A stretch of DNA of 64,000 nt from a virus. The DNA lies in the IMG/VR virus record IMGVR_UViG_3300015360_000043, positions 1 to 64,000 of that record, one strand, 5' to 3'. The position numbers were made by a program, and so were the translations under genes. The notes beneath the pieces were generated by a model, which saw nothing but the letters and a program-made list of their open reading frames with translations, was not told the DNA's origin and made no database searches. This document shows positions 8,316 through 64,000 of this stretch, piece after piece (the stretch's first letter is position 1; each line of letters opens with the position of its first letter).

Positions 8316-8320
8316 CCACC

Positions 8321-8707: not shown

Positions 8708-8712
8708 ACAGC

Positions 8713-9654: not shown

Positions 9655-9661
9655 CCCCCCG

Positions 9662-10126: not shown

Positions 10127-10135
10127 ACTAGGAGG

Positions 10136-10612: not shown

Positions 10613-12366
10613 GCGAACAACGATTCGATCTTAAAAAGCTACCAGAAGACGTCTACCAAAAGCTGGTGACAACCCGCTGGCGGTGCCGGACTGACTTGAA
10701 ATTCCTCTGCAACGAAGTCCTGGGCTTCAAAGACGTCAGCGAAGAACTGCACGGGCCGGTCATCGCCAATTTGCAACAATTTCCCCTACCCGACGTAGAG
10801 ACCCAGCGAAGCTCGGACAGAATTATCGACGGCAAATGGTACTTCACCAGCCCCACCCGCATGCTGGACCTCGAAGGCCGCCGCCGGATGCTGCTTATCG
10901 ACAGCCGCGGGTTTCTCAAAACAACCATCAACATCATCGCGCACACCATCCAGTGGATCATCAACTACCCCGACATAGCACTGTTAATCGTCCAAAGCAA
11001 CTCAGCAAAAGCTGAGGCGTTTTTGCGCGAGATCAAACAGCACTTCCAGGGGAACCCCCGCCTCCGGGCCCTCTTCCCCGAGCACTGCCCCATGAAGCGC
11101 ATCATGGAGTGGGGCACCCAGACCCAGTTCACGTCAGAGGCCCGCAGCATCACGGCCTTACGCCGGGAGCCCACCGTCGTGGCCGGCTCTATCGACAAAG
11201 GGATGGCCGGGTACCACTTTGACCTCATCAAGTTCTCCGACATCGTAGACCCCTCCAACATCACCGGCAACGGGCTCCAGCAGGTCAAAGACAGCTTCGG
11301 CATGATGCACAATCTGCTGATCTCCCCGCTGTACTGGATCGACGTGGAAGGCACCCGCTACCACATGGACGACCTGTACGGGAAGATCATCGAAGACGAG
11401 GACAAAGCGACGGAAGACATGAAGGAGTGGAACATGTTCATCCGGGGGGCGACCTTCCGGGAATGGGGCGGCAAGCCCGAGGAATACACCATGGAGGCCC
11501 TGCTGACCCGCCCCGAGGTGATAGACAAGGACGGCTTGCCAAAATCCCGCTGGCCTACCCGCTTCCCCAACAAAGACTTGGCCAGCATGAAACGCAAAAA
11601 CCGCTTCATGTACATGACCCAGCAGCAGCAGTTGCCCATGCCGACCGACGGCGACGCCTACTTCCCCGTCAACCACGCCTACCCGACCTGGATCTCCCGA
11701 AAGGACTTCAAACAGAACATAAGAGTGGCCGCGTATGAAATCACCGTGGACACCGCGGAGACCATTAACAAAAAAGCCGACTACACCGTCATCATAGTCG
11801 CCGCATGGTCCGGCAACGGCAAATGCTATATCGACAAAATCATAATGGGGCAGTTCCTTCCCGATCAAACCATTTCAAAAATCCTAAACGAGGCCCTCAC
11901 TCACTACGGCAAGCTCCGAAGCATTAAAATCGAAGAAACCGGCTACGTCCGGGGTATGAAATCTTCCCTCCAGCGCAAGATGGACATGAACGGCATTACG
12001 CTTCCGATCACCTTCGTGAAGCGCGATACCCAAGTCGGCAAGGAAGAGCGCATCGCCCAAACCCTCCAGCCCCCCTACCGGGCCCACGAGCTAATTTTTC
12101 TCGACGACCTGGGGCTCACCGTGGACAGCGAGGAATACCTTCTCACCAAAAGCGAGCTGCTCGAAGAACTGAAAAACTTCCCGGCAGCGAAGCATGACGA
12201 CATCCTTGACGCCATCTCCGACCTCTGGCAAAACAAAGGCTGGCACGGGCGAGAATTTACCCGACGCACGCTCACGCAAGAGTACGACACCAGCATGGCC
12301 CGGCTGCTGGGGCTCGACGACGAATACTCGATAGTCAACGCGCCCCGCAAGAGCTTCACGCTATAA
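10609..12366 (+). CDS. terL: Terminase large subunit (packaging ATPase-nuclease), 585 aa
   Basis: The N-terminal ATPase has a variant Walker A, SRGFLKTT (about residues 103-110), followed by LLIVQSNSAKAEAFLREI and FDLIKFSDIVD as the probable Walker B region. The C-terminal RNase H-like nuclease has ITVDTAETINKKADYT (first Asp), KIEETGY (Glu) and AKHDDILDAISD (last Asp). The length is normal. TerL pumps DNA through the portal and cuts concatemers. A terminase small subunit is not next to it. The ATGA overlap with the JAMM gene implies coupling. Confidence 0.9.
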   Translation: MSEQRFDLKKLPEDVYQKLVTTRWRCRTDLKFLCNEVLGFKDVSEELHGPVIANLQQFPLPDVETQRSSDRIIDGKWYFTSPTRMLDLEGRRRMLLIDSRGFLKTTINIIAHTIQWIINYPDIALLIVQSNSAKAEAFLREIKQHFQGNPRLRALFPEHCPMKRIMEWGTQTQFTSEARSITALRREPTVVAGSIDKGMAGYHFDLIKFSDIVDPSNITGNGLQQVKDSFGMMHNLLISPLYWIDVEGTRYHMDDLYGKIIEDEDKATEDMKEWNMFIRGATFREWGGKPEEYTMEALLTRPEVIDKDGLPKSRWPTRFPNKDLASMKRKNRFMYMTQQQQLPMPTDGDAYFPVNHAYPTWISRKDFKQNIRVAAYEITVDTAETINKKADYTVIIVAAWSGNGKCYIDKIIMGQFLPDQTISKILNEALTHYGKLRSIKIEETGYVRGMKSSLQRKMDMNGITLPITFVKRDTQVGKEERIAQTLQPPYRAHELIFLDDLGLTVDSEEYLLTKSELLEELKNFPAAKHDDILDAISDLWQNKGWHGREFTRRTLTQEYDTSMARLLGLDDEYSIVNAPRKSFTL

Positions 12367-12383
12367 TACCCATAGGCCCCTTC

Positions 12384-12677
12384 ATGAAAAAGTACAACTT
12401 TAAGCCGACCACTCTCCCTGGCATGATCGCCGTTGCCCTGGCTATTATCGCCGAGTACCCCAGCCCCTTCCCCTACGCCGAGAATATCCAACCTCTGGCC
12501 GGCCTTCTGGCCGCTATCGCGGCGGCGCTCTTCGCCTACAACGTCTCCGGGGCTCACCCGACGCCCCCCATTGTATCAACCCCTGATCTCGCTGAGGAAG
12601 ACCCGGCAAACAAACTTCTCCTGGCCATCCCTAAGGCCATCCCCGAGGTCTCGGCAAAACCCAAGGTCCGCGCATAA
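12384..12677 (+). CDS. Small membrane protein, 97 aa; possible holin
   Basis: Two hydrophobic segments are visible: residues about 11-24 (LPGMIAVALAIIAE) and 37-54 (PLAGLLAAIAAALFAYNV). They are followed by a Pro-rich soluble tail. A small two-segment membrane protein between terminase and portal would fit a holin, as T7 places its holin near the terminase genes, but no lysis enzyme is recognised here. The stop overlaps the portal start (TAATG). TATAAT occurs at 12364-12369 (read through the terminase stop). Confidence 0.7.
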   Translation: MKKYNFKPTTLPGMIAVALAIIAEYPSPFPYAENIQPLAGLLAAIAAALFAYNVSGAHPTPPIVSTPDLAEEDPANKLLLAIPKAIPEVSAKPKVRA

Positions 12678-14968
12678 TGCCCAATCAAGAAGCCCCGGTA
12701 CAACTGAACACCGTAGACCTCGACCAGGGGAAATTTGAGGTCGAGCGGGACAAACTTGAAAAAGACTACGCGCTCACCCTAGTCAACCAAACCTACGCCA
12801 CTTACGAGAATTTCCGCACCAGAAACCACGACAACCGCTGGTCCGCCAGCGACTCCCTGTACACGGGTTTCGTGGCCTCGCGGGTCTGGGAAGGCTCGAA
12901 CGTCCCCCGGGCCAACGTGTCCCACAAGCTCGTCTTCGACCACGTAGAAGCGGCCATCCCCTCCATCCACCAAGCCATCTTTGGCCTCGGGGACGAATGG
13001 TATTCTGTCATGCCGGAAGGCGAGGCTCGCCCGGAAGACGCCCGGAAGGTAAAAAAGGCCTTAGGGTTTGTCGTTCAAAACGCCCGCGATGACTACGGCG
13101 GCACCGCTGAAATGCAGATCGGCCTCGCGGTCAAAGACATCCTGCTGTACGGCAACGGGGGTATCGCCGTCGAATGGAACCAGCTTAAAAAGCGCCCTGA
13201 AATCTCCCGCGTGGACCTACGCGACATCTACATCGACCCCTCGCTATCCGACCCCTCCACCGATCGGGCTAGAAGCATCATCCGCAAACGCCTCATGACC
13301 GTCGCCGAGCTTATCGAGCTGCGAGACGACTCGCGCATGGAGATCCCTTCGGACTCGATTCTTCAATATCTGGCCAAAACAAACCCGTCGCCCTATGGCG
13401 ACCAAACAAAAGCCACCCAAGAAGCCTATCGTGGGGTCAACTATCAGCCCGCCAGTGACAACGTACTCCCCAATGCCTCAAACAACTACATCGAAGTCCT
13501 GGTGTATTACAGCATGTCCCGGATCATCTGGGTGTTGGGCCGGCAATGGGTCGCCTACAACGGCAAAAACCCCTACAACTTCTTCCCCTTCTGCTTCGCC
13601 CCTTGTTTTGTCTTTCCGAACAGATGGTATGCGTTAAGTTTTGCGGACGTCCTAGAAGACAAGCAGAAGTCCATCGAAGGCCTATTCAACGGCCATTTGG
13701 ATGAAGTCGCGCTGGCGCTAAACCCGCCGCGGTCACAAGCCCAAAACAACAACATGACGCCAAACCGAAGAGCGTGGGCTCCGGGCATGGTGTTCAACTC
13801 CGGCAGCAACGATCCCAGCAAGGCCGTCGCCCTACTCCAGCCGTCCCCAGTCACCACCAACGTCATGTCAGACATTTCGTTTTTGGAAATCGGGGCCGAG
13901 AAGAGCACGGGGATTAACGCCGTCGGCCAAGGCATCCCGCGGCCCGGCAATGCCAATCGTACCGCGACGGGCATGAATTCTCAACTGCAAGGCAGCGCCT
14001 CCCGCTTGTCAACGATTGTTAAAAACATCGAAGACTACCTGATGACGCCCCTGCTGTACAAAATCTACCTGCTTCTCCGGTATCACGTCAACAGCTTTGA
14101 CAAATTCGCCTCGCAGGACAATAACGGCGTCGTAGAATGGATCGACGGCGGCACCTTTCGGCAGCCGGTCAATTTCAAAATGCTCGCGTCGTCGAAAATG
14201 GTGACCCGCGACAAGCTAATGCAGATCTTCCCCTTCCTGACACAATACCTAATGTCGGGACCGTTCATGCAGGGGCTTAACCGCGCCGGACAAACAGTAG
14301 ACTTCGCCGAGCTATTCAAATTCATGCAGGACGCCTCCGGTGTCGAGCAGCTCTACACGCTAATCCGCCCCCTCAGCCCCGAGGAACAGCAAGCCCTTCA
14401 ACAGCCCGACCCCCAATCGGTCGCCGCCGACAAAAAAACCCAAATGGACTCGCAAACCAGAATGGGTGTGGCCCAGCTCGGGTCCCAAACGGCCCTCGAA
14501 GTCGCCAGGATCAACAACGCGCCGGATCCGCAAGCAGACGAAGGGACCCGGCTCAAACTGCAAATGGAAACCCAGGCCAAACAAGAAGAACTCGCGGCTA
14601 AGCGCGAGGAAGCCATGCTAAAAATCCAGCTCAAACAGGAAGAGGGGCGGATAAAGGGCGAAGCCGCCCAGATCAAAATGCAGTCGGACGCCGCGGCCAC
14701 CCAGTCCAAGCTGGGGCTCGCCCAGGCGGAAGGCCAACTGAAGCTCCAGGCCAAACAGCTCGAAACCGAGTCCAACCTCCAGAACCAACAGCTCACCCAA
14801 GCCTTTGCGCGGGAAGCGGAATCCGAAAAACACCAAAGGGGGCTCGCCCAGGGCGAAGAAGGGCACCAAGCCAAGCTATCACAAATGAAGCAAATGGCCA
14901 CTGTCAAGCCCTCCTCGGGCAAAAAGGCAGCGCCGGCCAAGGGCAAAAGCTCTCGGCCTCGGGTGTAA
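12677..14968 (+). CDS. Portal protein, 763 aa
   Basis: Size, position after terminase and before the scaffold, and sequence character identify the head-tail portal. The N-terminal 550 residues have ENFRTRNHDNRW and GNGGIAVEWNQLKKRPEIS, the DPSLSDPSTDRARSIIRKR segment and ARNPPR-like NPPRSQAQ typical of podoviral portals. Residues about 590-740 form a long Gln/Ala/Lys/Glu-rich coiled coil (KQEELAAKREEAMLKIQLKQ), and the end is a basic Lys/Ser/Ala tail. The coiled coil would make the barrel or an internal extension. Confidence 0.85.
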   Translation: MPNQEAPVQLNTVDLDQGKFEVERDKLEKDYALTLVNQTYATYENFRTRNHDNRWSASDSLYTGFVASRVWEGSNVPRANVSHKLVFDHVEAAIPSIHQAIFGLGDEWYSVMPEGEARPEDARKVKKALGFVVQNARDDYGGTAEMQIGLAVKDILLYGNGGIAVEWNQLKKRPEISRVDLRDIYIDPSLSDPSTDRARSIIRKRLMTVAELIELRDDSRMEIPSDSILQYLAKTNPSPYGDQTKATQEAYRGVNYQPASDNVLPNASNNYIEVLVYYSMSRIIWVLGRQWVAYNGKNPYNFFPFCFAPCFVFPNRWYALSFADVLEDKQKSIEGLFNGHLDEVALALNPPRSQAQNNNMTPNRRAWAPGMVFNSGSNDPSKAVALLQPSPVTTNVMSDISFLEIGAEKSTGINAVGQGIPRPGNANRTATGMNSQLQGSASRLSTIVKNIEDYLMTPLLYKIYLLLRYHVNSFDKFASQDNNGVVEWIDGGTFRQPVNFKMLASSKMVTRDKLMQIFPFLTQYLMSGPFMQGLNRAGQTVDFAELFKFMQDASGVEQLYTLIRPLSPEEQQALQQPDPQSVAADKKTQMDSQTRMGVAQLGSQTALEVARINNAPDPQADEGTRLKLQMETQAKQEELAAKREEAMLKIQLKQEEGRIKGEAAQIKMQSDAAATQSKLGLAQAEGQLKLQAKQLETESNLQNQQLTQAFAREAESEKHQRGLAQGEEGHQAKLSQMKQMATVKPSSGKKAAPAKGKSSRPRV

Positions 14969-14971
14969 CCC

Positions 14972-15250
14972 ATGCCTATCAACCTCGCAGCCTTCCATAT
15001 CCCCCTACGATCGGCAGTGCCTTTGGCTGCCCTTCCGGGCCAAACAGGGTATACTGAAATCAAGGAAGTTTTCGGGCAAGCTGAACGTTTTCTTGCTAAC
15101 CAACTTGACATCGACGATACCAAAAATGTCCTAAACCTCTGGCGGGCCGCCCGCCTTGCCCAGCAACTACTAACGTACATTCCAGAGAATGCAAAAATGC
15201 TCCTGGAGACAGTACCGGCACATGAATTTGACCTCCCGGAGAACCAATAA
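14972..15250 (+). CDS. Hypothetical protein between portal and scaffold, 92 aa
   Basis: Not recognised. Small mixed protein with the segment AERFLANQLDIDDTKNVLNLWRAARLAQQL, probably helical. Three bases follow the portal stop, and its own stop overlaps the next start (TAATGG), so it is translationally coupled on both sides and likely belongs to head assembly. Confidence 0.7.
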   Translation: MPINLAAFHIPLRSAVPLAALPGQTGYTEIKEVFGQAERFLANQLDIDDTKNVLNLWRAARLAQQLLTYIPENAKMLLETVPAHEFDLPENQ

Positions 15251-16026
15251 TGGAACAGACCTTTACCCCCGACCAAATCGCGGCCTTCATGGCTGAAATG
15301 ACCAACCACTCTGAGGACTCTTCGTCTTCGCAGCCTATCAAAGTTCAGGTCGGCGACCAAACGGTCACCTTCAACAATGAGGCCGAGCTCAGCTCGGGGC
15401 TAAACACGGTCTCGGCGAACTACAACGCTGCCAAGGCCGAAGCCCAGCAACTACGGCAGCAAAACGCCGCCCTCATCGCCCAGCATACTCAAGCAGGCCG
15501 GGGCTCTCAGGTATCCAGCGACGATGATACCCCTGAGTTCAGCCGGGATGAGTTTGTGGATGAGCTGGGGCGCGACCCCCTGCAAGCAATCAACCGGGCG
15601 CTCAACCATCTTGTATTTGACGGCAGGGCCGGCTCGGACGCCGCGGCGCTACTCCGAGAAGGCCTAATCCGAGGCACCTCCGCGGAGCGAAAGCTCGTCG
15701 CCACTCAGTACGCCGGCATTCACCCGGAAGTCGTGGGCAACAACCAGTACGCTAACGTCGTCGAACAAACTCGCAAGGAACTAGGTCTCGCCTTCGACCT
15801 CAACGGCCTTGAGGCTGCAACCGCGATGGCTGAACGCCGGGGTCAAATCCCCGACTACCGTCAATTCCAGCAATTCCAGCAAGCCCAGCAAGCCCCGCCG
15901 CCGGGTATGCGGTCAGGCTCCACCCCTACCTACCAAGATACCCAATTGTCCGAAGACTATCTCGAAAGTCTTTCCGTTGAGCAATTAGAGAATCTCGCAA
16001 ATCGTATGTCAGCGCCTCCGCGCTAG
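15250..16026 (+). CDS. Capsid scaffolding-type protein, 258 aa
   Basis: An acidic, Gln- and Ala-rich, mostly helical protein directly before the major capsid gene, the usual place of the scaffold. A predicted coiled coil (ANYNAAKAEAQQLRQQNAAL, residues about 57-77) and a Gln-rich segment (YRQFQQFQQAQQAPPPG) near the C-terminus are typical. The start overlaps the previous stop by one base. Assignment rests on position and composition. Confidence 0.75.
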   Translation: MEQTFTPDQIAAFMAEMTNHSEDSSSSQPIKVQVGDQTVTFNNEAELSSGLNTVSANYNAAKAEAQQLRQQNAALIAQHTQAGRGSQVSSDDDTPEFSRDEFVDELGRDPLQAINRALNHLVFDGRAGSDAAALLREGLIRGTSAERKLVATQYAGIHPEVVGNNQYANVVEQTRKELGLAFDLNGLEAATAMAERRGQIPDYRQFQQFQQAQQAPPPGMRSGSTPTYQDTQLSEDYLESLSVEQLENLANRMSAPPR

Positions 16027-16086
16027 TCTATGATACAATAACAACAGGTTTAGGGTAACCCCCGACCACAAAAAAGGATTCAAGAT

Positions 16087-17073
16087 ATGCCTTATTCCCC
16101 AGCAACAAATCTAACTTCTAGTGTAGGGTTGCCCCATGTTCAGACCGTCGTCTACCGCAAAAAGGCGCTCGACCGACTGATGACCAAGTTCCAGTTCCGC
16201 CAAGCCACCATGAAAGACACGATCGGCAAGCAGGAAGGCCGGACGGTCCAGTGGTTCCGGTACAATAACCCCTCGGCGGTTACTTCGGTAGCGGCAGAAG
16301 GGACTGTCGGCACGGGCACCGCGGCCAGCTCGCGTGTCGTTTCCGCAACTGTCTCCCAGTACACGGCCTTCATGACGATCTCTGACTTCCTGGAAGCCAC
16401 CGCCATCGACCCCGTGGTCAGCAACACCAGTGACTTGCTGGGCTATCAGGGCGGGCTCTCTGTTGACACCATCACGCGAAACGTGATCGACGCGGCTTCC
16501 ACGGCGACCAACCAGCCGCTTTTGGCGACCTACCTCCGCGTGGCTGACATCCGCTCCTCGCGCCACGGCCTGCAAGCTCTCAACGTTATGCCGTTCGAGG
16601 ACAGCAAGTTCCTCGTCCTGGCCCACCCGTATGTCACCTACGACTTGGTGAACGATCCGTCGGCTAACGGCCTCGCGGACATCGTTAAGTACACGGCTCC
16701 CCAGAACACCGCACTCGTCCGCTACGAGGACCGTGGGCTCATCGCCGAGGTAGCTGGCTGCCGGGTTATCGAGACCACCAACGTCTTCACGCAGACGACC
16801 CCCAACCGGTACCGCGCTTACGTCTTCGGCAAGGACGGCCTCGGCTCCCTTGAGCTGGCGGGCAAGGCTCCGGCCACGGTTACCGACCCGGCCAAGCAGC
16901 GGTTCAACATCCGCGTGATTCGCCCCGATCCGTCCATCGCGGACCCTGAGGGCGTGATTGCGGCTGCCGTCTCGTACAACTTCATGTACACCGTCGTATT
17001 CCTTGAGGGCCCCGCGGGCATCGGCGGCGTATATCGCTCCCGGACCTTGGATCCCCAATCGACCATCGCCTAA
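16087..17073 (+). CDS. Major capsid protein, N4-gp56 family, 328 aa
   Basis: The N-terminal VYRKKALDRLMTKFQFRQA and the QEGRTVQWFRYNNPSAVT, VAAEGT and YTAFMTISDFLEATAIDPVV segments are characteristic of the N4-gp56 family of HK97-fold capsid proteins. A strong ribosome site (AAAAAAGGATT) precedes the ATG, and a terminator (17099-17124) follows closely, as expected for the most highly expressed gene. A TACAAT element at about 16033-16038 may give it an additional promoter. Confidence 0.9.
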   Translation: MPYSPATNLTSSVGLPHVQTVVYRKKALDRLMTKFQFRQATMKDTIGKQEGRTVQWFRYNNPSAVTSVAAEGTVGTGTAASSRVVSATVSQYTAFMTISDFLEATAIDPVVSNTSDLLGYQGGLSVDTITRNVIDAASTATNQPLLATYLRVADIRSSRHGLQALNVMPFEDSKFLVLAHPYVTYDLVNDPSANGLADIVKYTAPQNTALVRYEDRGLIAEVAGCRVIETTNVFTQTTPNRYRAYVFGKDGLGSLELAGKAPATVTDPAKQRFNIRVIRPDPSIADPEGVIAAAVSYNFMYTVVFLEGPAGIGGVYRSRTLDPQSTIA

Positions 17074-17098
17074 TCCCCGGCGCTAACCAACACACGAC

Positions 17099-17124
17099 AA
17101 ACCCTCCTTAACCGGGGGGTTTTT
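17099..17124 (+). terminator. Rho-independent terminator after the major capsid gene
   Basis: A 9-bp stem AAACCCTCC (17099-17107) and GGGGGGTTT (17114-17122), with one G-T pair and a six-base loop, runs into five T residues (17120-17124). Downstream virion genes need read-through or the -10-like element at 17199. Confidence 0.8.
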
Positions 17125-17198
17125 CGCGTTTAGCCCCCACGAAAGGCCGCTTCGGGCACCGGGCCCCGGGCCCTCGCGGAACCCCTTCGGATATCAGC

Positions 17199-17204
17199 TA
17201 CAAT
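17199..17204 (+). promoter_or_regulatory. -10-like element (TACAAT) six bases before the 17211 start codon
   Basis: TACAAT followed by six bases and ATG, with no Shine-Dalgarno sequence. The arrangement matches those at 1654 (TAAAAT) and, on the - strand, at 5071-5076 (TATAAT). It sits just after the capsid terminator, where a new promoter would be needed. Confidence 0.4.
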
Positions 17205-17210
17205 ATAACC

Positions 17211-17621
17211 ATGGGCCCTACCACTCTGCCACCCCGCGTGTCTGCGTTCTCGCAGACCCAAACCCTCTACTGGTCCACGGGCGAGCTCTTCAACGGCTTC
17301 GCGCTCATTGGCCTCGTGACCCCGACAAGCGCCGGCACCCCCTGGGTGCTCGTGGCCCCCAACGGCTCATACCCCGGGGACGCGCTACCGGACTTCATGT
17401 ACGCCCCGATTGTCAACGGCAAGTGGAACCAGAGCTCGGGCCTCTTCTACAACTCCGACCTCACCCCTCCGAACTCCAGGTATGTCGCGTGGTACTACGA
17501 CCTCAGCAAGCGCCAACTGGCTGGCCCCACCAGCAACTTTGCCGCAAGCACAGCTACCATAACCCTCCCCGAATTACCCCTGACCTCCCCCACGATCGGC
17601 GCGAATCCGGTACCCGACTAA
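17211..17621 (+). CDS. Virion-type protein, 136 aa
   Basis: Not recognised. A Pro/Thr/Ser-rich, probably beta-structured protein with LYWSTGELFNGFALIGLVTPT and RYVAWYYDLSKRQLAGPTSNF. It follows the capsid terminator and opens the connector/tail group, possibly from a leaderless transcript. The stop overlaps the next start (TAATG). Confidence 0.7.
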   Translation: MGPTTLPPRVSAFSQTQTLYWSTGELFNGFALIGLVTPTSAGTPWVLVAPNGSYPGDALPDFMYAPIVNGKWNQSSGLFYNSDLTPPNSRYVAWYYDLSKRQLAGPTSNFAASTATITLPELPLTSPTIGANPVPD

Positions 17622-17878
17622 TGCCTAAATTTTTAGAGAATTCCATAACCGTCAAGGAGCTACTCGCATATGTGATCAGCGCAGTTACAATACTCGTCAG
17701 TATTTCCATCAGCTATGCCGAGTACACCAGAAAAGAAGCAGTTACGCAAGTAAAACTAGAAGGGATCATTGAAGCCCTCAAAGACAACACGGCTATTAAC
17801 GCACGCCAGAACGATCAACTTGAGCGTTTAAACATCCTGTTGACGGAATTCAAGGTGCGCGTGGAGATTAAACGATGA
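17621..17878 (+). CDS. Small membrane-anchored coiled-coil protein, 85 aa; spanin-like
   Basis: A short N-terminus (12 residues) precedes one transmembrane helix (about 13-33, LLAYVISAVTILVSISISYA) and then about 50 charged residues predicted as coiled coil (QVKLEGIIEALKDNTAINAR and onward). This topology is that of an inner-membrane spanin or a holin-like small phage protein. No outer-membrane lipoprotein partner is seen next to it. Overlaps both neighbours (TAATG and ATGA), so it is coupled. Confidence 0.7.
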   Translation: MPKFLENSITVKELLAYVISAVTILVSISISYAEYTRKEAVTQVKLEGIIEALKDNTAINARQNDQLERLNILLTEFKVRVEIKR

Positions 17879-18465
17879 TCGTAAACGACGAAGCTAGGCA
17901 AGCGAGGGTAGCGCAGGCACGAAAGCGCGATGATACGCTCCAAGCCAACTTCAACAACGTCACCCGCGAGATCAAAGACGCGGGTTTAATTGACAAGACA
18001 AACACCTTGCTCCAGATGGGCAAGATGATGTTGACGCCGGACTTTGAGCAAAAGCTCTTCCCGCTCAACAAGGGGTTTGTCGCCGAGACTTTCCCGCATG
18101 ACTCGTCCAAAAGGGCCCTCTATATAGTGGACCTCCGGGGCAAGTTCCACGTCATGTCATATGAGTCGGCATGGATGCCGGAGCGCTCTGTGATGACCCA
18201 CAAGACCGTCCGGGTCCCAGATCCTAAGCTCAGCTCCATGAGTGGCCGCGACGTGCCCTCAAGCGACCCTGACGCGCTTAAACCCGGCTGGATGGACGTG
18301 CAGATACCCGGGCGGGAAGCTGTCCGAGGTTGGCGCACGGTACTAGCCCGGCTCATCCAAAACGACCTGATAACCCTCAGTGACAGCGATCGAGTTTTCG
18401 GCGGTGACAACACGCCTGAATGGCAGCAGAACACAGGAGCCGCCGGATACACCCGGCCCTGGTAA
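17875..18465 (+). CDS. Hypothetical virion-region protein, 196 aa
   Basis: Not recognised. The N-terminal 45 residues are basic and helical; later LYIVDLRGKFHVMSYESAWMP and a Trp-containing C-terminus follow. It overlaps the preceding gene by four bases. Its place between capsid and tail-tube adaptors suggests a head-completion or connector-associated protein; unproven. Confidence 0.7.
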   Translation: MIVNDEARQARVAQARKRDDTLQANFNNVTREIKDAGLIDKTNTLLQMGKMMLTPDFEQKLFPLNKGFVAETFPHDSSKRALYIVDLRGKFHVMSYESAWMPERSVMTHKTVRVPDPKLSSMSGRDVPSSDPDALKPGWMDVQIPGREAVRGWRTVLARLIQNDLITLSDSDRVFGGDNTPEWQQNTGAAGYTRPW

Positions 18466-18479
18466 CCAACGGAGATCAT

Positions 18480-18917
18480 ATGGAAATCAAGAAAAAGACC
18501 GACGAAAATCCACTAGCGGATCCAATGCTGCTGGCGACCCTGGCAGCCCAGGCCAGCACCGGTGGGGGCGCAATGTCGGACGACCTTCAAGCGCTGCTAA
18601 AGCTCGCGCTCAAAAAGGCCGCGAAGATTGACGCGCAAGAGGAAGAGACCGAACGGACCAACAAGGTAGCCCAGCTCAGTAACGCGCATGTCCTCGAAGG
18701 CGTGCGGAAACAAAGGCTGGAGGAGCAGGAGTTCTGCAACCATCGGAACGAGCATAATCAGTCCTTGCTGGTCGGCCAACGGACTCAGCATGGATTCGCC
18801 GTGCTTTTGTGCCAGAAGTGCCAGAAACTATTCACGTCTCCCCCGCAAAACCCCGAGGAACGCATCCCGCCCGGCCTAGAGCCACGGCCTAATTTCGTCG
18901 GCGGGCCTCATCAGTAA
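18480..18917 (+). CDS. Protein with a CxH...CxxC zinc-ribbon-like motif, 145 aa
   Basis: The ATG at 18480 follows GGAGATC. After a helical, charged first half (coiled coil around residues 55-85), the second half contains FCNHRNEHNQ and, about 25 residues later, LCQKCQKLF. This gives a C-x-H...C-x2-C set that could bind one zinc. The end is Pro-rich. Family unknown. Confidence 0.7.
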   Translation: MEIKKKTDENPLADPMLLATLAAQASTGGGAMSDDLQALLKLALKKAAKIDAQEEETERTNKVAQLSNAHVLEGVRKQRLEEQEFCNHRNEHNQSLLVGQRTQHGFAVLLCQKCQKLFTSPPQNPEERIPPGLEPRPNFVGGPHQ

Positions 18918-18933
18918 CCAGCAAGGATAACCT

Positions 18934-19626
18934 ATGGCGGCAACCAAAACACCCTACGAAGCGTTCGATATCGCGAAAAAGTTTGTCAAAAACATGCCTT
19001 TGGAGAGCGTCGGGCCCCAAATTCTCGACGAGATTAACAAAAGGATGTGGATGGCCGCCCCCTGGCGATGGACCCTTGGTGCGTTGCCGCCGATCACCCC
19101 ACTTGTAAACGTCACGGACTACAACATTGCCCTCCCGAACAATTTTCTTTATATATATGATGCGATTCTGGCTAACGCCGGAAAGATTGTTCGCCATCTG
19201 GAGTGCATTGGGGAGATTAACCCAACCGTTAACCAGATCGGGCAGATTAGCAAAATTGCTCACGTTACTGCGGGGACATTCCGGGTATACCCGAAGCCGC
19301 CGCAAGTAGACAACCCCGCGTCAAGTATCCTATGCCGGTACAAGAAGGTCTCGCCCTTGGTGACTAACCAGTCCCAGAGCACCCCCGGGCTACTCGTCAT
19401 GGATGACGACTGGTTTTGGGTTTACCAGCACGGTGTCATCTGGCTGTCCTACCTCTGGGGTGATGATTCCCGGGCCGGGTCGGCGACGGTGGACAAAAAC
19501 GGCCAGACGCAGTATTCAGGGCAGAGGGCAGTCTTTGAAGATGGCCTCTGGCAGATGCGGAATCGCGAAAAACTAATCCCGCTCGATGACCGAAAAGCCA
19601 TCGACGTCGAGGAGAACAATAAATAA
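18934..19626 (+). CDS. Tail tubular protein A-like (connector adaptor, T7 gp11-type), 230 aa
   Basis: The N-terminal helix ending in ILDEINKRMWMAAPWRWTLG and the later FLYIYDAIL and FRVYPKPP segments match the adaptor proteins that form the ring between portal and nozzle in T7-like tails. It is followed immediately by a second protein of the same general type and later by a gp12-like nozzle. Assigned by pattern and gene order. Confidence 0.7.
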   Translation: MAATKTPYEAFDIAKKFVKNMPLESVGPQILDEINKRMWMAAPWRWTLGALPPITPLVNVTDYNIALPNNFLYIYDAILANAGKIVRHLECIGEINPTVNQIGQISKIAHVTAGTFRVYPKPPQVDNPASSILCRYKKVSPLVTNQSQSTPGLLVMDDDWFWVYQHGVIWLSYLWGDDSRAGSATVDKNGQTQYSGQRAVFEDGLWQMRNREKLIPLDDRKAIDVEENNK

Positions 19627-20355
19627 ATGGCTCTATCCCCCGCCACGCTTACTTACGCCGACGTCTTAAACGTCGCCCGGTCAACCATCCCGGCACTCAA
19701 AGAGGATGATTTCGCGGCGACCATTTGTAACATGGCGGTCAACCTTATTTGGTCCGATTTTGACTGGCGCGAGTCTATCGTACCTCTGCCTCCCTTCTAC
19801 CTGACCGCCCTACAGCAGGACTACGGCTCCCCCGCAGTAGTCATCCCGGCAGATTTTGGCGGCCTTCGGAAGGTCCACCTTACCGACTTACAGAGCAACC
19901 CTACCACGCAAACCGAACTACGGCCCTTGCGGTTTCTCGACCGGACAAGTCGAATCGGAATGCCAGAGGCCGTAGGGTATGTGCCCGAGCTGGCCGTTTT
20001 GCGAGTATTCCCTTTGGTCCCTGGCGGCATTCAGCCTCCCCGGTGGACTATCTCAGGCACTTACAAGAAAAACCCGCCGGTCATCAGCGCGGCAATTCTC
20101 AACTCTCCCATCCCGTTTCAGGATAAGTATTTTTTAACCATGCTCGATGCAGTGCGCTGGGCAGCCGCAGCCGTAGGTGGCAGCGGGGAGCTGGCGAATA
20201 GCCGTCGGGGTATTGTAGCTCAGTCAATAATGGCCCAGGCGGCGCAGGAAGGTGTGGATATGGGGGATACGACTATTCACCCATCAGCCCCCCTGGGTTT
20301 CACAGGCCGGGGTATGATGTGGTCCGCGAGGTACCCAGGTGGAGCCTCTTTCTAA
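19627..20355 (+). CDS. Second tail tubular protein A-like adaptor, 242 aa
   Basis: Starts directly after the previous stop. TYADVLNVARSTIPALKEDDFAATICNMA and IWSDFDWRESI correspond to the helix-plus-Trp pattern of the preceding gene, and VIPADFGGLRKVHL and LRVFPLVPGG to its strands. This suggests a duplicated adaptor (a two-layer adaptor ring) or one adaptor plus one tail-completion protein. Confidence 0.65.
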   Translation: MALSPATLTYADVLNVARSTIPALKEDDFAATICNMAVNLIWSDFDWRESIVPLPPFYLTALQQDYGSPAVVIPADFGGLRKVHLTDLQSNPTTQTELRPLRFLDRTSRIGMPEAVGYVPELAVLRVFPLVPGGIQPPRWTISGTYKKNPPVISAAILNSPIPFQDKYFLTMLDAVRWAAAAVGGSGELANSRRGIVAQSIMAQAAQEGVDMGDTTIHPSAPLGFTGRGMMWSARYPGGASF

Positions 20356-20461
20356 CAAGCTCATCCTCAAACTGCCCAAACTTCCGCCTCGTCCCTTACC
20401 GGACCCGGCATCCACAATACCGCCGGTTTATCACCCGGCCCCTTTTAAAGGTTTAGAATAG
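20339..20461 (+). CDS. Possible small Pro/Leu-rich peptide, 40 aa
   Basis: A GTG at 20339 opens a 40-codon frame that fills the gap between two virion genes (LILKLPKLPPRPLPDPAST and onward). GAGGT lies about seven bases upstream. It overlaps the previous gene by 17 bp and ends six bases before the next start. Short, and composition may be chance; kept because it exactly bridges the gap. Confidence 0.3.
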   Translation: MEPLSNKLILKLPKLPPRPLPDPASTIPPVYHPAPFKGLE

Positions 20462-20467
20462 GAACAT

Positions 20468-20965
20468 ATGAGTACCAAAGCAATTCAACACGAAGACGAG
20501 AATGACAAGATCGAGGCCAAGCTGTCCGCTGACGCCGTGAAGGCCAAACTTCCTGACGGCAAATACGATATTTTTGGCTTGGTGTTTGACGTCAAAAGTG
20601 GTAAGTTCGAAGATCGAGTGTCCGGTAAGCCCGTCAGCGATTTCACTTTCGAAAGCGGCGAGACGACGCTGGGCGAGGCCATTTTTCCCGTTAATCCGAC
20701 CCAGTTTGCCACGGAAGAGACCCGCGACGCCGTGCTGGCAATCGTGCTCCCAGAGCTGCTGAAGTCCGGTTCCGTGACCGATTACTCCAAGCATGACACC
20801 AAGCTGCACCAGCCGGCCTATCGGCCCATCGTCGAGCGCGGGATCGAGTTTTTCAAAGGCGAGAAAGCCGTACTCGTCAACGCTGGTTTGCTGGCGAACA
20901 GCATCATCCGCAGTGGGGAAGCGGTGACCATCGCCGGCCTGAAAGACACCCTCAACTTGGACTAA
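20468..20965 (+). CDS. Hypothetical virion-region protein, 165 aa
   Basis: Not recognised. Charged, soluble protein with a regular mix of helices and strands and no membrane helix. GGAACAT precedes the ATG (TTAGAATAGGAACAT). Codon use differs slightly from the Gly-rich neighbours, with a more standard amino-acid composition. Position between adaptor and Gly/Pro-rich internal proteins suggests an ejected or assembly protein. Confidence 0.7.
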   Translation: MSTKAIQHEDENDKIEAKLSADAVKAKLPDGKYDIFGLVFDVKSGKFEDRVSGKPVSDFTFESGETTLGEAIFPVNPTQFATEETRDAVLAIVLPELLKSGSVTDYSKHDTKLHQPAYRPIVERGIEFFKGEKAVLVNAGLLANSIIRSGEAVTIAGLKDTLNLD

Positions 20966-20992
20966 TCCGCAAAGCAAAATAGGAGCCCTTCT

Positions 20993-22276
20993 ATGGCAGA
21001 CATCTCATTCAATCCCGACAACGACAATTTCGATTACAATCCTCCTGCTCCTGAAGGGGCTCCTACTGGCGGCGGCCCCCTGCCGCCCAGTCCATCCGGC
21101 GGCATTGGAGATTTCAGCAACTGGACCCCGGGGGGCTCCAACAAGCCTGATTCTGCTTATTACGACTTGTTCTCGGGCCCTTCGGGCTTTGCGCCCTTTG
21201 GCGCGGGCGCTCCGACAGCCCCCCGGACGAGAGATAACCCGAACAGCGGAGGCGGCGGTGGAACCGATCGAGCGCCAACGCCACCACGAGCGCCGGGCGC
21301 TGCACCTCCCCCTGCTGCCCCTCCGCTTGCCCCTGGTGGTGCCCCGCCTACTGGCAGAGGCGGTGTCCCCCCGCCCGTAGCCCCTCCGGCACCGCCGGCC
21401 CCTCCCGCTGGCCCCTACCAGCCTGGGTACGAGTCCAATGGCTACAATCCTCTCCAGTACGCTAACCTGAAGACGGCCAACGACATGGCAACGTCCTTCG
21501 GGGGCAACGCCGTGCAGACCAGGGGCGTCGGCGCGGGAGCGGCTCCTGACCAAAACATGATCAACATGGGCGGCGGAAACTTGTTCAACGCCGGTCTCGT
21601 GGCCCAAAATGTCCAGCGGTATGGCCTAGAAGCTGCCAAAAAGATGATGCAGGCAGAGATGAATATGCCGGGGGCCTATAACCCGAATTGGCAAAATGAG
21701 GACTCTGTGTTCAGACTGGGGGGCGACAACGCGCAAATTCGGTCTCTGCCCGGCGGCGTCCAGGCGGGAGCCAACAATCCGGCATGGGGCATGCAGGCCC
21801 AAAATGCTGGAGGTCCCGGCGGAGGTCCCGGCGGCGGAACTGGCCGAGGCCCCGGCGGCGGAGGTGGCGGAGGTGGCGGCGTAGCACCCCCCGCAGGTCC
21901 CACGGCACCCCCCGTACACCCCGGCGGCGGAGCTCCAACGGCTTCCGGCGCTGGTCAAGACCCTCGCTTTGTCGGTGGCGGAATAGGCAACTTCGACCTG
22001 TTCTCCGCAATCAATAACTTCATGCCGGGCGGGAACCGCGGGAAACAGGGCGGGCAGCTTAACGCCCAATCCCTGCTCGCAATGCTGCTGGGCGGTAACC
22101 TCGGAGGGAACCAGTCCCTCGCGCCCGGACAGCGAAGCCCCGGCAGCAACGGCGCATTTAACCCGAATCTCATGGGACCTGGAGGGACACGACAAAATAC
22201 CCCACCCTCGGGCCCGCGGGGCCCTATGTCAAAACAGGACATGGAGTCTCTACTCCAAATGATCTTCGGCGGCTAA
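20993..22276 (+). CDS. Gly/Pro-rich low-complexity virion protein, 427 aa
   Basis: GGAG lies eight bases before the ATG. Residues 1-145 are dominated by Pro, Ala and Gly; about 145-240 form a more regular segment (NLKTANDMATSFGGNAVQTR, VQRYGLEAAKKMMQAEM). A second Gly/Pro block includes runs of nine Gly, and the C-terminus (SKQDMESLLQMIFGG) is helical. Likely a disordered internal or tail protein. The second strand of the same DNA shows Arg-rich open frames that are by-products of its G+C bias. Confidence 0.7.
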   Translation: MADISFNPDNDNFDYNPPAPEGAPTGGGPLPPSPSGGIGDFSNWTPGGSNKPDSAYYDLFSGPSGFAPFGAGAPTAPRTRDNPNSGGGGGTDRAPTPPRAPGAAPPPAAPPLAPGGAPPTGRGGVPPPVAPPAPPAPPAGPYQPGYESNGYNPLQYANLKTANDMATSFGGNAVQTRGVGAGAAPDQNMINMGGGNLFNAGLVAQNVQRYGLEAAKKMMQAEMNMPGAYNPNWQNEDSVFRLGGDNAQIRSLPGGVQAGANNPAWGMQAQNAGGPGGGPGGGTGRGPGGGGGGGGGVAPPAGPTAPPVHPGGGAPTASGAGQDPRFVGGGIGNFDLFSAINNFMPGGNRGKQGGQLNAQSLLAMLLGGNLGGNQSLAPGQRSPGSNGAFNPNLMGPGGTRQNTPPSGPRGPMSKQDMESLLQMIFGG

Positions 22277-39830: not shown

Positions 39831-39905
39831 CTGTTTCTCTCTTCCTTGCGTCTATTACCCTTGTCTGTCGTTTTTATAGTCCCTCGACATAAGGGATAAT
39901 GAGGG

Positions 39906-39978
39906 TGGGGTACTCATGGATTTGAACCATCGCTTGCGAATTTGGATCCGCCGTGCTAACCGCTACACCAAATACCCC
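39906..39978 (-). tRNA. tRNA-like gene, possibly tRNA-Trp(CCA) with a 6-nt anticodon loop, or degenerate
   Basis: Reads GGGGTAT...(G)TACCCC as acceptor stem, a D-arm with GTG/CAC around AGCGGTTAG, and a T-arm GG-TTCAAAT-CC. The anticodon stem GCGGA/TTCGC closes a loop of only six bases (TCCAAA). Placing U33 at its first base gives CCA (Trp), with position 32 missing. One extra C would give a standard Trp loop. The 3' CCA is not encoded (discriminator A followed by CCC). It has its own sigma70-like promoter five bases upstream. Functional or decaying cannot be decided here. Confidence 0.65.
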
Positions 39979-52342: not shown

Positions 52343-52741
<399 letters not shown>

Positions 52742-60501: not shown

Positions 60502-60515
60502 AAGTCACCTCAGCT

Positions 60516-60537
60516 AGGCCCCCAACTAAAGGGGCCT
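60516..60537 (-). promoter_or_regulatory. Leader hairpin of the 60501 gene
   Basis: Perfect 7-bp stem AGGCCCC (60516-60522) and GGGGCCT (60531-60537). The ribosome site follows at once on the - strand. Confidence 0.6.
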
Positions 60538-60557
60538 AATCAGGAGACTAAAATATG

Positions 60558-61112
60558 CTAGTCCAGAGCGATACCGAGTAGGAGATCGGCCCAGCTAGTC
60601 AGCGGGATCACCCGCATGGTCTGTACGGGCATAAAATGCCCTCGCACCTGCAAGTATGCCACTGTGGCTACTACCTCCGTCAGGTAGACGGCGATATGGC
60701 TCAACGGCACCCGGCCAGACTGGTAGTCCTTTAGGGCTACAGCCAATTCCTCCTTGGGACTAAATCCCTCGCCGTGGGCCAGATGCCCCAGGTCGTGGAA
60801 CACCCGGCCCACTTGGTTCAACGATAAGGGATCGTCGGGACCGAAGAAGTGGTGCCCGCTTGCGTTGGCCAGATAATGAAAGGCAGACAGGCTTGAGTCG
60901 TCTGGGTTTACCGGATAGACCCCTGCTGTGAACTGCTCTCGCATTTCATCCAAGGAGAGCTCCGCCGGCTCCCTGACAAACCGTCCTGGTGGCCGACCTT
61001 CCAGAGCGCCAACCAAGGCACTATCCAACCAGTTGCCGTACTGTAGGTACGCTGGCGGATTAAGTATCCCTTCATCTTCATACAGGTCGTAAACCTGCTG
61101 CCATAGAGTCAT
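60558..61112 (-). CDS. Hypothetical protein, 184 aa
   Basis: Start at 61112 (ATGACTCTATGG) after GAGGTGATTATC; the open frame continues upstream through the leader. Contains VGRVFHDLGHLAHGEGFSPK with several His (HDLGHLAHGE) that could bind a metal, and acidic/aromatic segments. Helical C-terminus. Not recognised. Confidence 0.65.
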   Translation of the reverse strand: MTLWQQVYDLYEDEGILNPPAYLQYGNWLDSALVGALEGRPPGRFVREPAELSLDEMREQFTAGVYPVNPDDSSLSAFHYLANASGHHFFGPDDPLSLNQVGRVFHDLGHLAHGEGFSPKEELAVALKDYQSGRVPLSHIAVYLTEVVATVAYLQVRGHFMPVQTMRVIPLTSWADLLLGIALD

Positions 61113-61127
61113 GATAATCACCTCATC

Positions 61128-61155
61128 GGTAACCCCGGTGCTATTAAGGGTTACC
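61128..61155 (-). promoter_or_regulatory. Leader hairpin of the 61112 gene
   Basis: Perfect 8-bp stem GGTAACCC (61128-61135) and GGGTTACC (61148-61155), directly before GAGGTGATT and the ATG. Confidence 0.6.
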
Positions 61156-61164
61156 ATCAGGAGA

Positions 61165-61695
61165 CTATTCGGTATAGAACGGCACGGCGGGGAGCTCATG
61201 CTCCAAGTACCACTCGAAGTACTTAATCGCGAGCCCTTTCCGTCGAGCCCTCGCTTCTAAATTACGCTCAGGATCCGTGGTTGAAAAAAGCAGTCCGGCC
61301 TGTTCATAATCTTTGGAGATCCTCCGGTTCAGCCACCGATGGGAGAAGAATATCTCCGCACTATGGCCCCACGTAAGATGCGGGATGTCCAGTAGCTTGC
61401 AGGCCTCCTGCTCCACTCCCTGGTTGTCCTGCTCCCCGTTGAGAGGATGTCCCAACTCCAGAACCGCATGGCCGCCGAAGCAGCACACGGTACCGCATGA
61501 GGTATCCGTATAAAGGCTTGACGGGATTTCGCGAGTGTAGCAGACGAAAGCAGATTCCATCTCTGACTTCGGACCGAGTATGCGAATCCAACTACCCATG
61601 TCAAACTTATCAGGCGGACAGGCCTTGATCCTGTCGATTACTCGACGCCATTTTCTATTGCGGTCCTTATGCCGCGTCGTCACTACAGGTCCCAT
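61165..61695 (-). CDS. Hypothetical protein, 176 aa (paralogue of the 61757 gene)
   Basis: Shares with the next gene VIDRI(K/R)ACPP(D/E)KF(D/N)M, YTR(E/D)IP, CG-VCCFGGHA, EACSLLDI/EACKLLDI, FFSHRW and the ending YFEWY. The start at 61695 follows GGAGGTATTTGAC; the leader (ATGGAGGTATTTGACATG) is identical in both copies. Two adjacent Cys in VCCFGG and conserved His could bind metal. Family not recognised. Confidence 0.7.
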   Translation of the reverse strand: MGPVVTTRHKDRNRKWRRVIDRIKACPPDKFDMGSWIRILGPKSEMESAFVCYTREIPSSLYTDTSCGTVCCFGGHAVLELGHPLNGEQDNQGVEQEACKLLDIPHLTWGHSAEIFFSHRWLNRRISKDYEQAGLLFSTTDPERNLEARARRKGLAIKYFEWYLEHELPAVPFYTE

Positions 61696-61712
61696 GTCAA
61701 ATACCTCCATCA

Positions 61713-61738
61713 GGGCCCTCTGGTTACCCAAAGGGCTC
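61713..61738 (-). promoter_or_regulatory. Leader hairpin of the 61695 gene
   Basis: GGGCCCT (61713-61719) pairs with AGGGCTC (61732-61738), one G-T pair. The flanking AAGTATCTCAACC (- strand) and the ribosome site are the same as in the leader at 62344-62367, so the whole leader was duplicated with the gene. Confidence 0.65.
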
Positions 61739-61756
61739 GGTTGAGATACTTGAAGC

Positions 61757-62326
61757 CTATGCGTATTCGCCGAAGAACGGCGCATCAGGCAACCAGTACT
61801 GCATATACCACTCGAAGTAGCGAATCGCTATTTCTTTGCGCTTGATTTCCAGCGATTTGTTGAATTTGTTGTCGTACTTCGTCATCAAAGACGAATTTTG
61901 CGAGTACTCTTGGCGCATTCGTTCGTTCCTCCACCGATGGGAGTAGAACACAGTGCCCGCGTAGTCCGACCCTTGCGAGATGTCCAGCAGGCTACAGGCC
62001 TCTTTTTCGATGGACTTGTAATCCTCTAGGTAAGCATCGGCAGCGAACCAGGGGGACAGAGGAGCTACAGGGGATCCCAAGGCCAAGATCGCGTGGCCGC
62101 CAAAACAACACACCCCGCCGCAAGTCGTCCCCTCATAGTACTCCAGGGGAATATCTCGGGTATAGGTGACGGAGAAGTCTTCAACATCTACCACAATGGC
62201 GGGCACCCTAATCCAGGTGCTCATATTGAACTTCTCCGGCGGACACGCCCGGATCCTGTCAATCACGCGCTCCCACTTGTTAAGCCTTGCGACCAAGCGC
62301 ACGGTGTGGGCAATCTCAGTTTTCAT
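61757..62326 (-). CDS. Hypothetical protein, 189 aa (paralogue of the 61165 gene)
   Basis: Start at 62326 (ATGAAAACTGAG) behind GGAGGTATTTGAC. Same conserved blocks as its paralogue (VIDRIRACPPEKFNM, CGGVCCFGGHAILALG, EACSLLDIS, FYSHRWRNERM, YFEWYMQYWLPDAPFF). Its middle holds an insertion of about 15 residues. Unknown family; the preserved CCFGGHA suggests a conserved site. Confidence 0.7.
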   Translation of the reverse strand: MKTEIAHTVRLVARLNKWERVIDRIRACPPEKFNMSTWIRVPAIVVDVEDFSVTYTRDIPLEYYEGTTCGGVCCFGGHAILALGSPVAPLSPWFAADAYLEDYKSIEKEACSLLDISQGSDYAGTVFYSHRWRNERMRQEYSQNSSLMTKYDNKFNKSLEIKRKEIAIRYFEWYMQYWLPDAPFFGEYA

Positions 62327-62343
62327 GTCAAATACCTCCATCA

Positions 62344-62367
62344 GAGCCCTCTATGAATAAAGGGCTC
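62344..62367 (-). promoter_or_regulatory. Leader hairpin of the 62326 gene
   Basis: Perfect stem GAGCCCT (62344-62350) and AGGGCTC (62361-62367), followed on the - strand by GATGGAGGTATTTGACATG. Copy of the leader at 61713. Confidence 0.65.
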
Positions 62368-62378
62368 GGTTGAGATAC

Positions 62379-62726
62379 TTAGGGGTATCGGTACCAAAGC
62401 CGGGCCTTTTGGCCGGCGTACTCCACCAGCTTTCCCAGAATCCCTCCTGAGGTCCCGATACCGAACGCATCGGGGGTGAAGACCACGTTCGAGGCGGCTC
62501 CCCAATAGAACCAACTCCCGGACGTATGACCGGGCGAAGGCTCGAATTGGATCCCGTTGTACTGCGCCCGTTTTACCTCACGGATCAGCCCTTCGGGTGA
62601 CTCAATCGCCTTCCTCAAGGTAGGATCCGGCCATGGTTCACCTACGAGGAACAAGCTGAGCTTGACCCCGGGGACCAGAAATCGTTTCAATTCGGCCAAA
62701 TTCTGTGGCCGCTCATTTTCAGGCAT
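62379..62726 (-). CDS. Hypothetical protein, 115 aa
   Basis: GGAGGTTATTCC precedes the ATG. Alpha/beta with LAELKRFLVPGVKLSLFLVG and an aromatic/Gly-rich C-terminal half (GHTSGSWFYWGAASNVVFTP). Not recognised. Confidence 0.7.
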   Translation of the reverse strand: MPENERPQNLAELKRFLVPGVKLSLFLVGEPWPDPTLRKAIESPEGLIREVKRAQYNGIQFEPSPGHTSGSWFYWGAASNVVFTPDAFGIGTSGGILGKLVEYAGQKARLWYRYP

Positions 62727-62742
62727 GGAATAACCTCCAGCT

Positions 62743-62764
62743 CGATCCCTTGTTAGAAGGATCG
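62743..62764 (-). promoter_or_regulatory. Leader hairpin of the 62726 gene
   Basis: CGATCC (62743-62748) pairs with GGATCG (62759-62764), extended by CTT/AA with a bulge; GGAGGTTATT follows on the - strand. Confidence 0.6.
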
Positions 62765-62772
62765 AAAGTAGG

Positions 62773-63237
62773 TTACTGCACGGGCTCGAAGTCGTAGTTC
62801 GAGATAATGGCCCAATCCGGCGGCGCGGGCAAGATATCCGGGTATTGAAGCATCAGACGTCTCAACTCCCTGATATACTCCGCCCACGCCTTGTACTTCG
62901 TCACGTGGTCGTTTATCGCCCCCGCCGCGTTATCATGAGCGGTGATCAACCTATGAATCAGGTCCGCATCATCCGCGCTATGCGAGTCTTCTAGCGTCTG
63001 CTCTGAGATCACTTTCAAGATCTCTTTCCAGTGAGACCCGGCTCCTGAATCCCAGGCCGGGTCATACAGCTCCTCGGAGATAGCGTAACCGAAGTTACAC
63101 TTTCTCCCATCGGAGGTATGATAGATGCACCGGAAATCGGACCCTGTTCCCCGAAAGGATAGCGTCCGGGCTCTCAGATTCGAGGTCGCGCCTTGCCATA
63201 CGGCTTCGCGAACCTCTGCGAGCGAGTTATGTTGCAT
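62773..63237 (-). CDS. Hypothetical protein, 154 aa
   Basis: Start at 63237 because GGAGGTTATT lies directly before it; an in-frame ATG at 63249 is part of that ribosome site. Contains CIYHTSDGRKCNFGYAISEE (C-x9-C-type spacing) and a long helical second half. Not recognised. Confidence 0.7.
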   Translation of the reverse strand: MQHNSLAEVREAVWQGATSNLRARTLSFRGTGSDFRCIYHTSDGRKCNFGYAISEELYDPAWDSGAGSHWKEILKVISEQTLEDSHSADDADLIHRLITAHDNAAGAINDHVTKYKAWAEYIRELRRLMLQYPDILPAPPDWAIISNYDFEPVQ

Positions 63238-63249
63238 AATAACCTCCAT

Positions 63250-63277
63250 CCTTGACCCTTCGTTACTAAGGTCAAGG
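63250..63277 (-). promoter_or_regulatory. Leader hairpin of the 63237 gene
   Basis: Perfect 8-bp stem CCTTGACC (63250-63257) and GGTCAAGG (63270-63277), with the loop TTAGTAACGAAG-type; TTAGTAAC recalls the iteron core ACTTAGTAAC at the left end. The ribosome site follows directly. Confidence 0.6.
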
Positions 63278-63284
63278 ACGCAAG

Positions 63285-63512: not shown

Positions 63513-63546
63513 GTTATCAATGTCTCCAATCGAAGCCCCTCGTATA

Positions 63547-63590
63547 GCCCCCGAAGGGGGCCCTATGTAGCCCCGAAGGGGGCCCTATGA
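63547..63590. repeat. Tandem 22-23-bp repeats with GCCCC(C)GAAGGGGGCCCTATG
   Basis: Two tandem copies: GCCCCCGAAGGGGGCCCTAT at 63547-63566 and GCCCCGAAGGGGGCCCTAT at 63570-63588. Each forms a hairpin closed by a GAA loop. The same hairpin occurs at 1486, 1578, 1603, 48808 and 49380. Confidence 0.75.
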
Positions 63591-63619: not shown

Positions 63620-63694
63620 TGGTAGCCTTGACGGGAGTCGAACCCGCGCCCCCACCTCGAAAGGGTGGTGTCCTAACCGTTAGACCACAAGGCT
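63620..63694 (-). tRNA. tRNA-Glu (anticodon UUC) with encoded CCA
   Basis: Acceptor AGCCTTG/CAAGGCT (7 bp, 63688-63694 and 63624-63630), D-arm with GTCTAACGGTTAGGAC, anticodon stem CCACC/GGTGG around loop CTTTCGA (anticodon TTC), T-arm CGGG-TTCGACT-CCCG, discriminator A (63623) and encoded CCA (63620-63622). All arms are regular, so it is probably functional. It would support translation of GAA/GAG codons or replace a cleaved host tRNA. Confidence 0.9.
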
Positions 63695-63966: not shown

Positions 63967-64000
63967 ATAGTTACCTCAATTACCAGTCCTATTTAAAGAC

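Follow-up and report, generated by a model that had tools for sequence, protein, structure and literature searches.

The IMG/VR virus record IMGVR_UViG_3300015360_000043, from an uncultured bacterial virus, is 64,773 bases long and of the linear class, and the window analysed here, positions 1 to 64,000 of that record (64,000 nucleotides, nt), covers most of it. The record encodes a terminase, a portal, DNA polymerase A, an RNA ligase and a polynucleotide kinase, and its open reading frames (ORFs) run rightward in the first half and mostly leftward in the second. In one leftward operon, seven of the first eight genes (those starting at 63966, 63237, 62726, 62326, 61695, 61112 and 60501) are preceded by a real, compact and repeated RNA element, a hairpin in which an inner stem stands on an outer stem that joins the Shine-Dalgarno (SD) sequence and the bases following it to those at or just past the upstream stop codon; the mechanism that we attach to it below is a proposal. 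Gene 63512 is the only one of the eight without a hairpin and sits behind a transfer RNA (tRNA) gene for glutamate on the same strand. The nine genes around the stems have a base composition of the coding type. We call these genes early on account of two promoters close to consensus (TTGACG, 18 nt, TATAAT) at record positions 64668 and 64538, past the window end, which suggest an early, host-type promoter region. The hairpin of gene 63966 extends past the window end, and additional record sequence served to read it. Pair counts below come from the predicted folds, and shuffles are those that folded as well as the native sequence.

63968 to 64000, continuing to record position 64018 past the window, minus strand: hairpin before gene 63966-63706; SD GAGG in the outer stem; 21 pairs, -22.7 kcal/mol, z -5.59
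63620 to 63694, minus strand: tRNA-Glu (TTC) before gene 63512-63285; called by ARAGORN; Rfam tRNA, 66.8 bits
63238 to 63289, minus strand: bipartite hairpin before gene 63237-62773; holds the stop codon of gene 63512-63285 and the SD GGAGG; 21 pairs, z -7.29, 0/200 shuffles
62729 to 62777, minus strand: bipartite hairpin before gene 62726-62379; holds the upstream stop codon and the SD; 22 pairs, z -4.25, 0/200 shuffles
62329 to 62381, minus strand: bipartite hairpin before gene 62326-61757; holds the upstream stop codon and the SD; 4x5 internal loop; 20 pairs, z -4.53, 0/200 shuffles
61697 to 61753, minus strand: bipartite hairpin before gene 61695-61165; starts 3 nt past the upstream stop codon; A.C mismatch in the inner stem; 21 pairs, z -5.36, 0/200 shuffles
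61114 to 61168, minus strand: bipartite hairpin before gene 61112-60558; holds the upstream stop codon and the SD GAGG; 20 pairs, z -5.61, 0/200 shuffles
60503 to 60549, minus strand: bipartite hairpin before gene 60501-60244; starts 8 nt past the upstream stop codon; SD GAGG in the outer stem; 18 pairs, z -4.74, 0/200 shuffles

The structures and their placement were computed here. In all seven hairpins mismatches, bulges or an internal loop separate the inner from the outer stem, and the whole makes up about two helical turns, with a span of 47–57 nt as read from the coordinates. The base of the hairpin adjoins the start codon: the stem ends 0–2 nt before the ATG, and in the fold of 62726 two extra pairs extend into it. 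The upstream stop codon lies within the outer 5′ arm in four of six cases and 3 and 8 nt before the arm in the other two, and the stop-to-start gaps before the hairpin genes measure 46–61 nt. The predicted loops vary in sequence and in length (4–10 nt), and the inner stem, taken through the ATG, folds at -9.4 to -19.5 kcal/mol. Near the loop all seven inner stems carry a U.G pair beside C-G pairs in a CU(U) ... GG pattern, while the body of the stem changes; this pattern, noted post hoc, could reflect a common origin of the hairpins or mark a recognition site.

The first-pass annotation had described perfect stems just before the SD at six sites, which turn out to be the upper half only of the structure: the stems are real, and the outer stem that contains the SD had been overlooked. 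The earlier view needs correcting chiefly on this point: the structure includes the SD. When perfect stems of 6 base pairs (bp) or longer ending 0–12 nt before an SD were searched for mechanically, five of the six were recovered (63249–63278, 62742–62765, 62344–62367, 61128–61155 and 60515–60538), all on the minus strand, 7–9 bp long and 1–4 nt from GGAGG or GAGG. The sixth, 61713–61738, has one A.C mismatch and falls outside the list; the remaining matches were mostly 6-bp stems ahead of unlikely ORFs. The same layout had also been claimed at 51971 and 52281, where we found plain short stems with the SD 14 and 11 nt away, no outer stem and z-scores of -0.97 and -1.82, so these two sites do not belong to the set.

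Folded from the upstream stop codon to the ATG, the six hairpins inside the window reached -21.8 to -30.3 kcal/mol with z-scores of -4.25 to -7.29, and for each of them none of 200 dinucleotide shuffles was as good. When 96 automatically chosen starts of the record were surveyed, the seven hairpin genes gave z-scores of -3.82 to -5.59, and the lowest value among the other 89 was -3.12; some of the 96 were probably misplaced, such as 60007, chosen for a gene whose start is more likely 60247. We then scanned 134 starts in the record together with 1,640 in 82 other sequences, namely 80 IMG/VR loci, 9 kb of T7 and 28 kb of TM4. The 80 loci are distant ones gathered by a DUF7178 profile search and serve as a comparison set only, not as a random sample of phages. 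Under strict criteria (an SD within a single hairpin of 16 or more pairs, z ≤ -3.5, base at most 4 nt from the start) the record yielded the seven hairpins and a plus-strand ORF at 63125 that is antisense to a gene and probably spurious. Outside the record 3 of the 1,640 starts qualified, one per locus in three loci, two of them sharing a near-identical hairpin. With the criteria relaxed (z ≤ -3.0 and a wider base limit) there were nine in the record and ten outside, three of the latter in TM4.

Pairing is kept as the sequence changes. Of the 56 cells at SD offsets 1–8, 53 are paired, and the pair at offset 5 is T-A, A-T or C-G in different genes; these counts come from predicted folds and are hence biased towards pairing. 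When the 16-nt 5′ flank was shuffled, the native outer stem beat the shuffles with a combined p of 1.9e-6, driven mainly by 63966 and 63237, and the test was weak for some single hairpins (436/2000 for 62326, 137/2000 for 62726). An arm-swap test gave a modest result: the hairpins' own arms were matched by 56 of 5040 permutations with all seven included, by 28 of 720 without 61695 and by 13 of 120 without 61695 and 63966. Hairpins 62326 and 61695 share arms and are not independent, because their genes are paralogues. RNAalifold on a MAFFT alignment recovered the inner stem with 7 pairs, 5 of them showing two-sided change, and did not recover the outer stem. The stem sequences vary, as the earlier observation had it, and the base of the hairpin is fixed beside the ATG in all seven. 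Since the element is limited to seven of the first eight genes, keeps its structure despite sequence change and places its base beside the ATG, its existence as a gene-by-gene RNA element is well supported.

Genes 61165–61695 and 61757–62326 (minus strand) are the neighbouring paralogues, 46% identical, with weak matches to phrog_889. Neither one of them nor an alignment of both found a relative in a search of viral contigs, and the DUF7178 protein and the DNA polymerase found none there either. The terminase and the portal each retrieved the same single viral contig, 99.2% identical over 1487–21332 and lacking the early region; a genome contig search with the terminase gave no relative. In the phage collection the terminase's best match was a Tunturiibacter phage at 24.9% identity, and no match was obtained for window positions 40001–64000 as DNA or for one paralogue as protein.

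Several known element types were compared with the hairpins. None of the seven was listed as an intrinsic terminator (the seventh lay partly outside the scan), and an SD, not a T run, follows the stem. A scan of the six in-window hairpins found no sigma-70 promoter within them. Integron attC sites were set aside, as the arms, read by eye, lack a GTTRRRY core. At Rfam gathering scores the window contained two tRNAs only and no hairpin match.

Modelled accessibility suggests that the ribosome sites are probably masked and that the mask is moderate, not absolute. The SD pairs upstream with a probability of 0.75–0.80 in the hairpin genes. Opening the SD alone is predicted to cost 3.9–9.0 kcal/mol in the seven, versus a median of 2.9 in the 65 other SD genes of the record, and opening the stretch from SD to AUG 6.2–11.9 kcal/mol. 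With the outer arms separated, as a cut would leave them, the SD-to-AUG cost falls to 1.6–7.8 kcal/mol in 7/7, and a ribosome modelled at the upstream stop codon lowers it to 4.5–8.4 kcal/mol in 6/6. In terms of unpaired probability the modelled cut helps 63966, 62326 and 61695, and 61112 less so. These models do not distinguish cutting from coupling.

We favour the explanation that the hairpins are processing signals of the RNase III (ribonuclease III) type, similar in position and size to those of phage T7, which also mask the SD and are cut to open it; we put its probability at roughly 0.4 (0.42). Each hairpin would act as a two-turn, irregular double-stranded RNA signal at an early gene boundary, and a host RNase III-like enzyme would cut close to the junction of inner and outer stem. 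Cutting would break the early transcript up into shorter mRNAs, with the inner hairpin remaining at an RNA end, and would detach the SD from its upstream pairing partner, with a presumed gain in translation. Processing is favoured because the length is near-constant, a hairpin stands before the first gene and the sole exception is a tRNA, which is itself excised. Of the first-pass suggestion of mRNA-stabilising or processing hairpins, the second half is thus our best reading; pure stabilisation explains less, the SD lying inside the structure. Several observations weigh against processing. The placement of the upstream stop codon in the outer arm is not something that processing needs, and the T7 stems mostly do not include the SD. 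The SD-to-AUG costs of the hairpin genes fall within the range of the 65 other SD genes (median 6.0, 90th percentile 12.3 kcal/mol). In 63237, 62726 and 60501 the unpaired probability hardly gains from the cut.

The same stop-codon placement favours translational coupling, in which the outer stem would mask the SD until its 5′ arm is melted by the ribosome completing the upstream gene, in a relay from gene to gene. The stop codon is never more than 8 nt before that arm, the gaps resemble the +52 nt of the masked rpmI-rplT pair as given in an excerpt of PMC12548453, and the modelled ribosome at the stop lowers the opening cost at every boundary to which it applies. For 62326, however, this effect is small (6.2 to 5.9 kcal/mol), a constant length of about 20 pairs is not required for coupling, and gene 63966 has the same hairpin with no upstream gene bearing a recognisable SD in the ORF list. 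We regard coupling, the strongest of the competing explanations, as possible but on balance unlikely, with cut-to-open processing slightly ahead of it; both could act together. An RNA-binding protein of phage or host that recognises the hairpins and jointly represses or activates the early genes would fit the apical pattern, which recurs in 7/7 inner stems while the rest of the stem changes, and among 77 phage proteins there is one match to phrog_986, ‘RNA-binding protein’, though not one linked to the hairpins. The loops, which differ in length and sequence, and the lack of a match to a known operator make this improbable.

That the hairpins are plain stabilisers guarding 5′ or 3′ ends, with SD pairing incidental, is more improbable again: the inner stems are stable alone, but neither an outer stem better than its shuffled flanks nor an end at the ATG in 7/7 is needed for protection. 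A mask of the T4 gene e type, in which the long transcript is blocked and later translation comes from a promoter inside the hairpin, has a precedent in T4 e, soc, 49 and I-TevI (part of PMC3014915), yet sigma-70-like promoters, the only type scanned, were absent from the six in-window hairpins and the presumed early promoters immediately precede the genes, so that we consider it very unlikely. We give least credence of all to chance, intrinsic terminators or a duplicated DNA cassette without RNA function. Duplication accounts for one pair, hairpins 62326 and 61695; the shuffles, the survey of starts, the pairing kept under sequence change and the lack of a terminator call at the hairpins all speak against this group.

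Upstream of the first gene, record positions 63968–64502 (minus strand, mostly past the window) form a 535-nt leader that folds at -180.4 kcal/mol with a z-score of -4.71 and 0/100 shuffles as good, making it a candidate noncoding RNA. At the record end only tRNA-Glu reaches the Rfam cut-off, the leader region itself giving no match above it except this downstream tRNA. In a 16-nt leader stretch at about record 64378–64363 (minus strand), 15 of the 16 positions complement the 5′ halves of both hairpin 62326 and hairpin 61695, as noted post hoc; in 300 shuffled leaders the best complementarity was 14 of 16. A bolder and rather doubtful extension of our proposal is that the early operon is locked gene by gene, with eight boundaries, each bearing an SD-masking two-turn hairpin or a tRNA, that would be opened in order by cutting or by the preceding ribosome, so that gene order would time the first proteins. 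Through its 16-nt complementarity the structured leader may take part in such a lock. If our reading of the hairpins is right, the phage could tune early genes singly after transcription from one promoter region, the seven hairpins would be seven natural sequence solutions to one RNA design, informative on the requirements of RNase III or of a coupling ribosome, and they would offer a design source for per-gene translation locks.

Other features of the record were noted alongside. After tRNA-Glu, positions 63541–63580 hold two tandem GC-rich stems with TTCG loops, and similar GCCCCCGAAGGGGGC repeats occur at 48808 and 49380. A tRNA-like gene at 39904–39978 (minus strand) has an anticodon left unassigned by ARAGORN and an Rfam tRNA score of 42 bits. 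The record end, 64733–64773, contains a 10-nt unit, GCGCGTGTAT, in four copies, and 52343–52741 (minus strand) is a 132-amino-acid ORF strongly enriched in aspartate and glutamate, with simple-repeat coding.

The early RNase III sites of T7 are named R0.3, R0.5, R1, R1.1 and R1.3. R1.1, the model RNase III site, is a 49-nt stem according to a partial text of PMC8708148, and the hairpins described here resemble the T7 early sites in being irregular, of about two turns and similar in length, and placed between presumed early genes with host-type promoters. In T7, however, the strong stems are found further upstream and for the most part exclude the SD, whereas here the SD is within the stem; the probability of upstream SD pairing is 0.23–0.45 for T7 genes 0.3, 0.5, 1, 1.1 and 1.3. 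The closest layout is that of the extended start-associated sequences (ESAS) of cluster K mycobacteriophages, which the passages available from PMC3203893 describe as imperfect inverted repeats just before the SD of many non-structural genes, and which PMC12699233, in its accessible part, also treats. Our folds of TM4 gave stable hairpins at ESAS positions, and both systems place an inverted repeat directly before the SD of several genes. ESAS repeats, unlike the present stems, share a consensus and adjoin the SAS motif GGGATAGGAGCCC; the stems here share little sequence, their SD pairs near the upstream stop codon, and the SAS consensus is not contained in the seven hairpin sites.

Freeing an occluded ribosome binding site by RNase III cleavage, the mechanism proposed here, is described for adhE and lambda cIII in an extract of PMC5371410. 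Those are single genes with shown cutting, whereas the present case comprises seven in one operon and is predicted. The coupled rpmI-rplT pair likewise has a masking structure, with a gap near 50 nt, and differs from the present operon, which has six such gaps in a small region plus a hairpin ahead of gene 63966. In early transcripts of T4 e, soc, 49 and I-TevI, too, a helix takes up the SD or AUG, and related e genes carry late promoters in the 5′ strand of the helix, as far as the consulted portion of PMC3014915 states; the hairpins here share the SD in a helix, but no internal sigma-70-like promoter was found in the six within the window. Full-text literature searches, with few subscription journals covered, listed no paper whose title or displayed abstract described this arrangement. 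The parts resemble known ones, and it is their use in gene after gene that is unusual.

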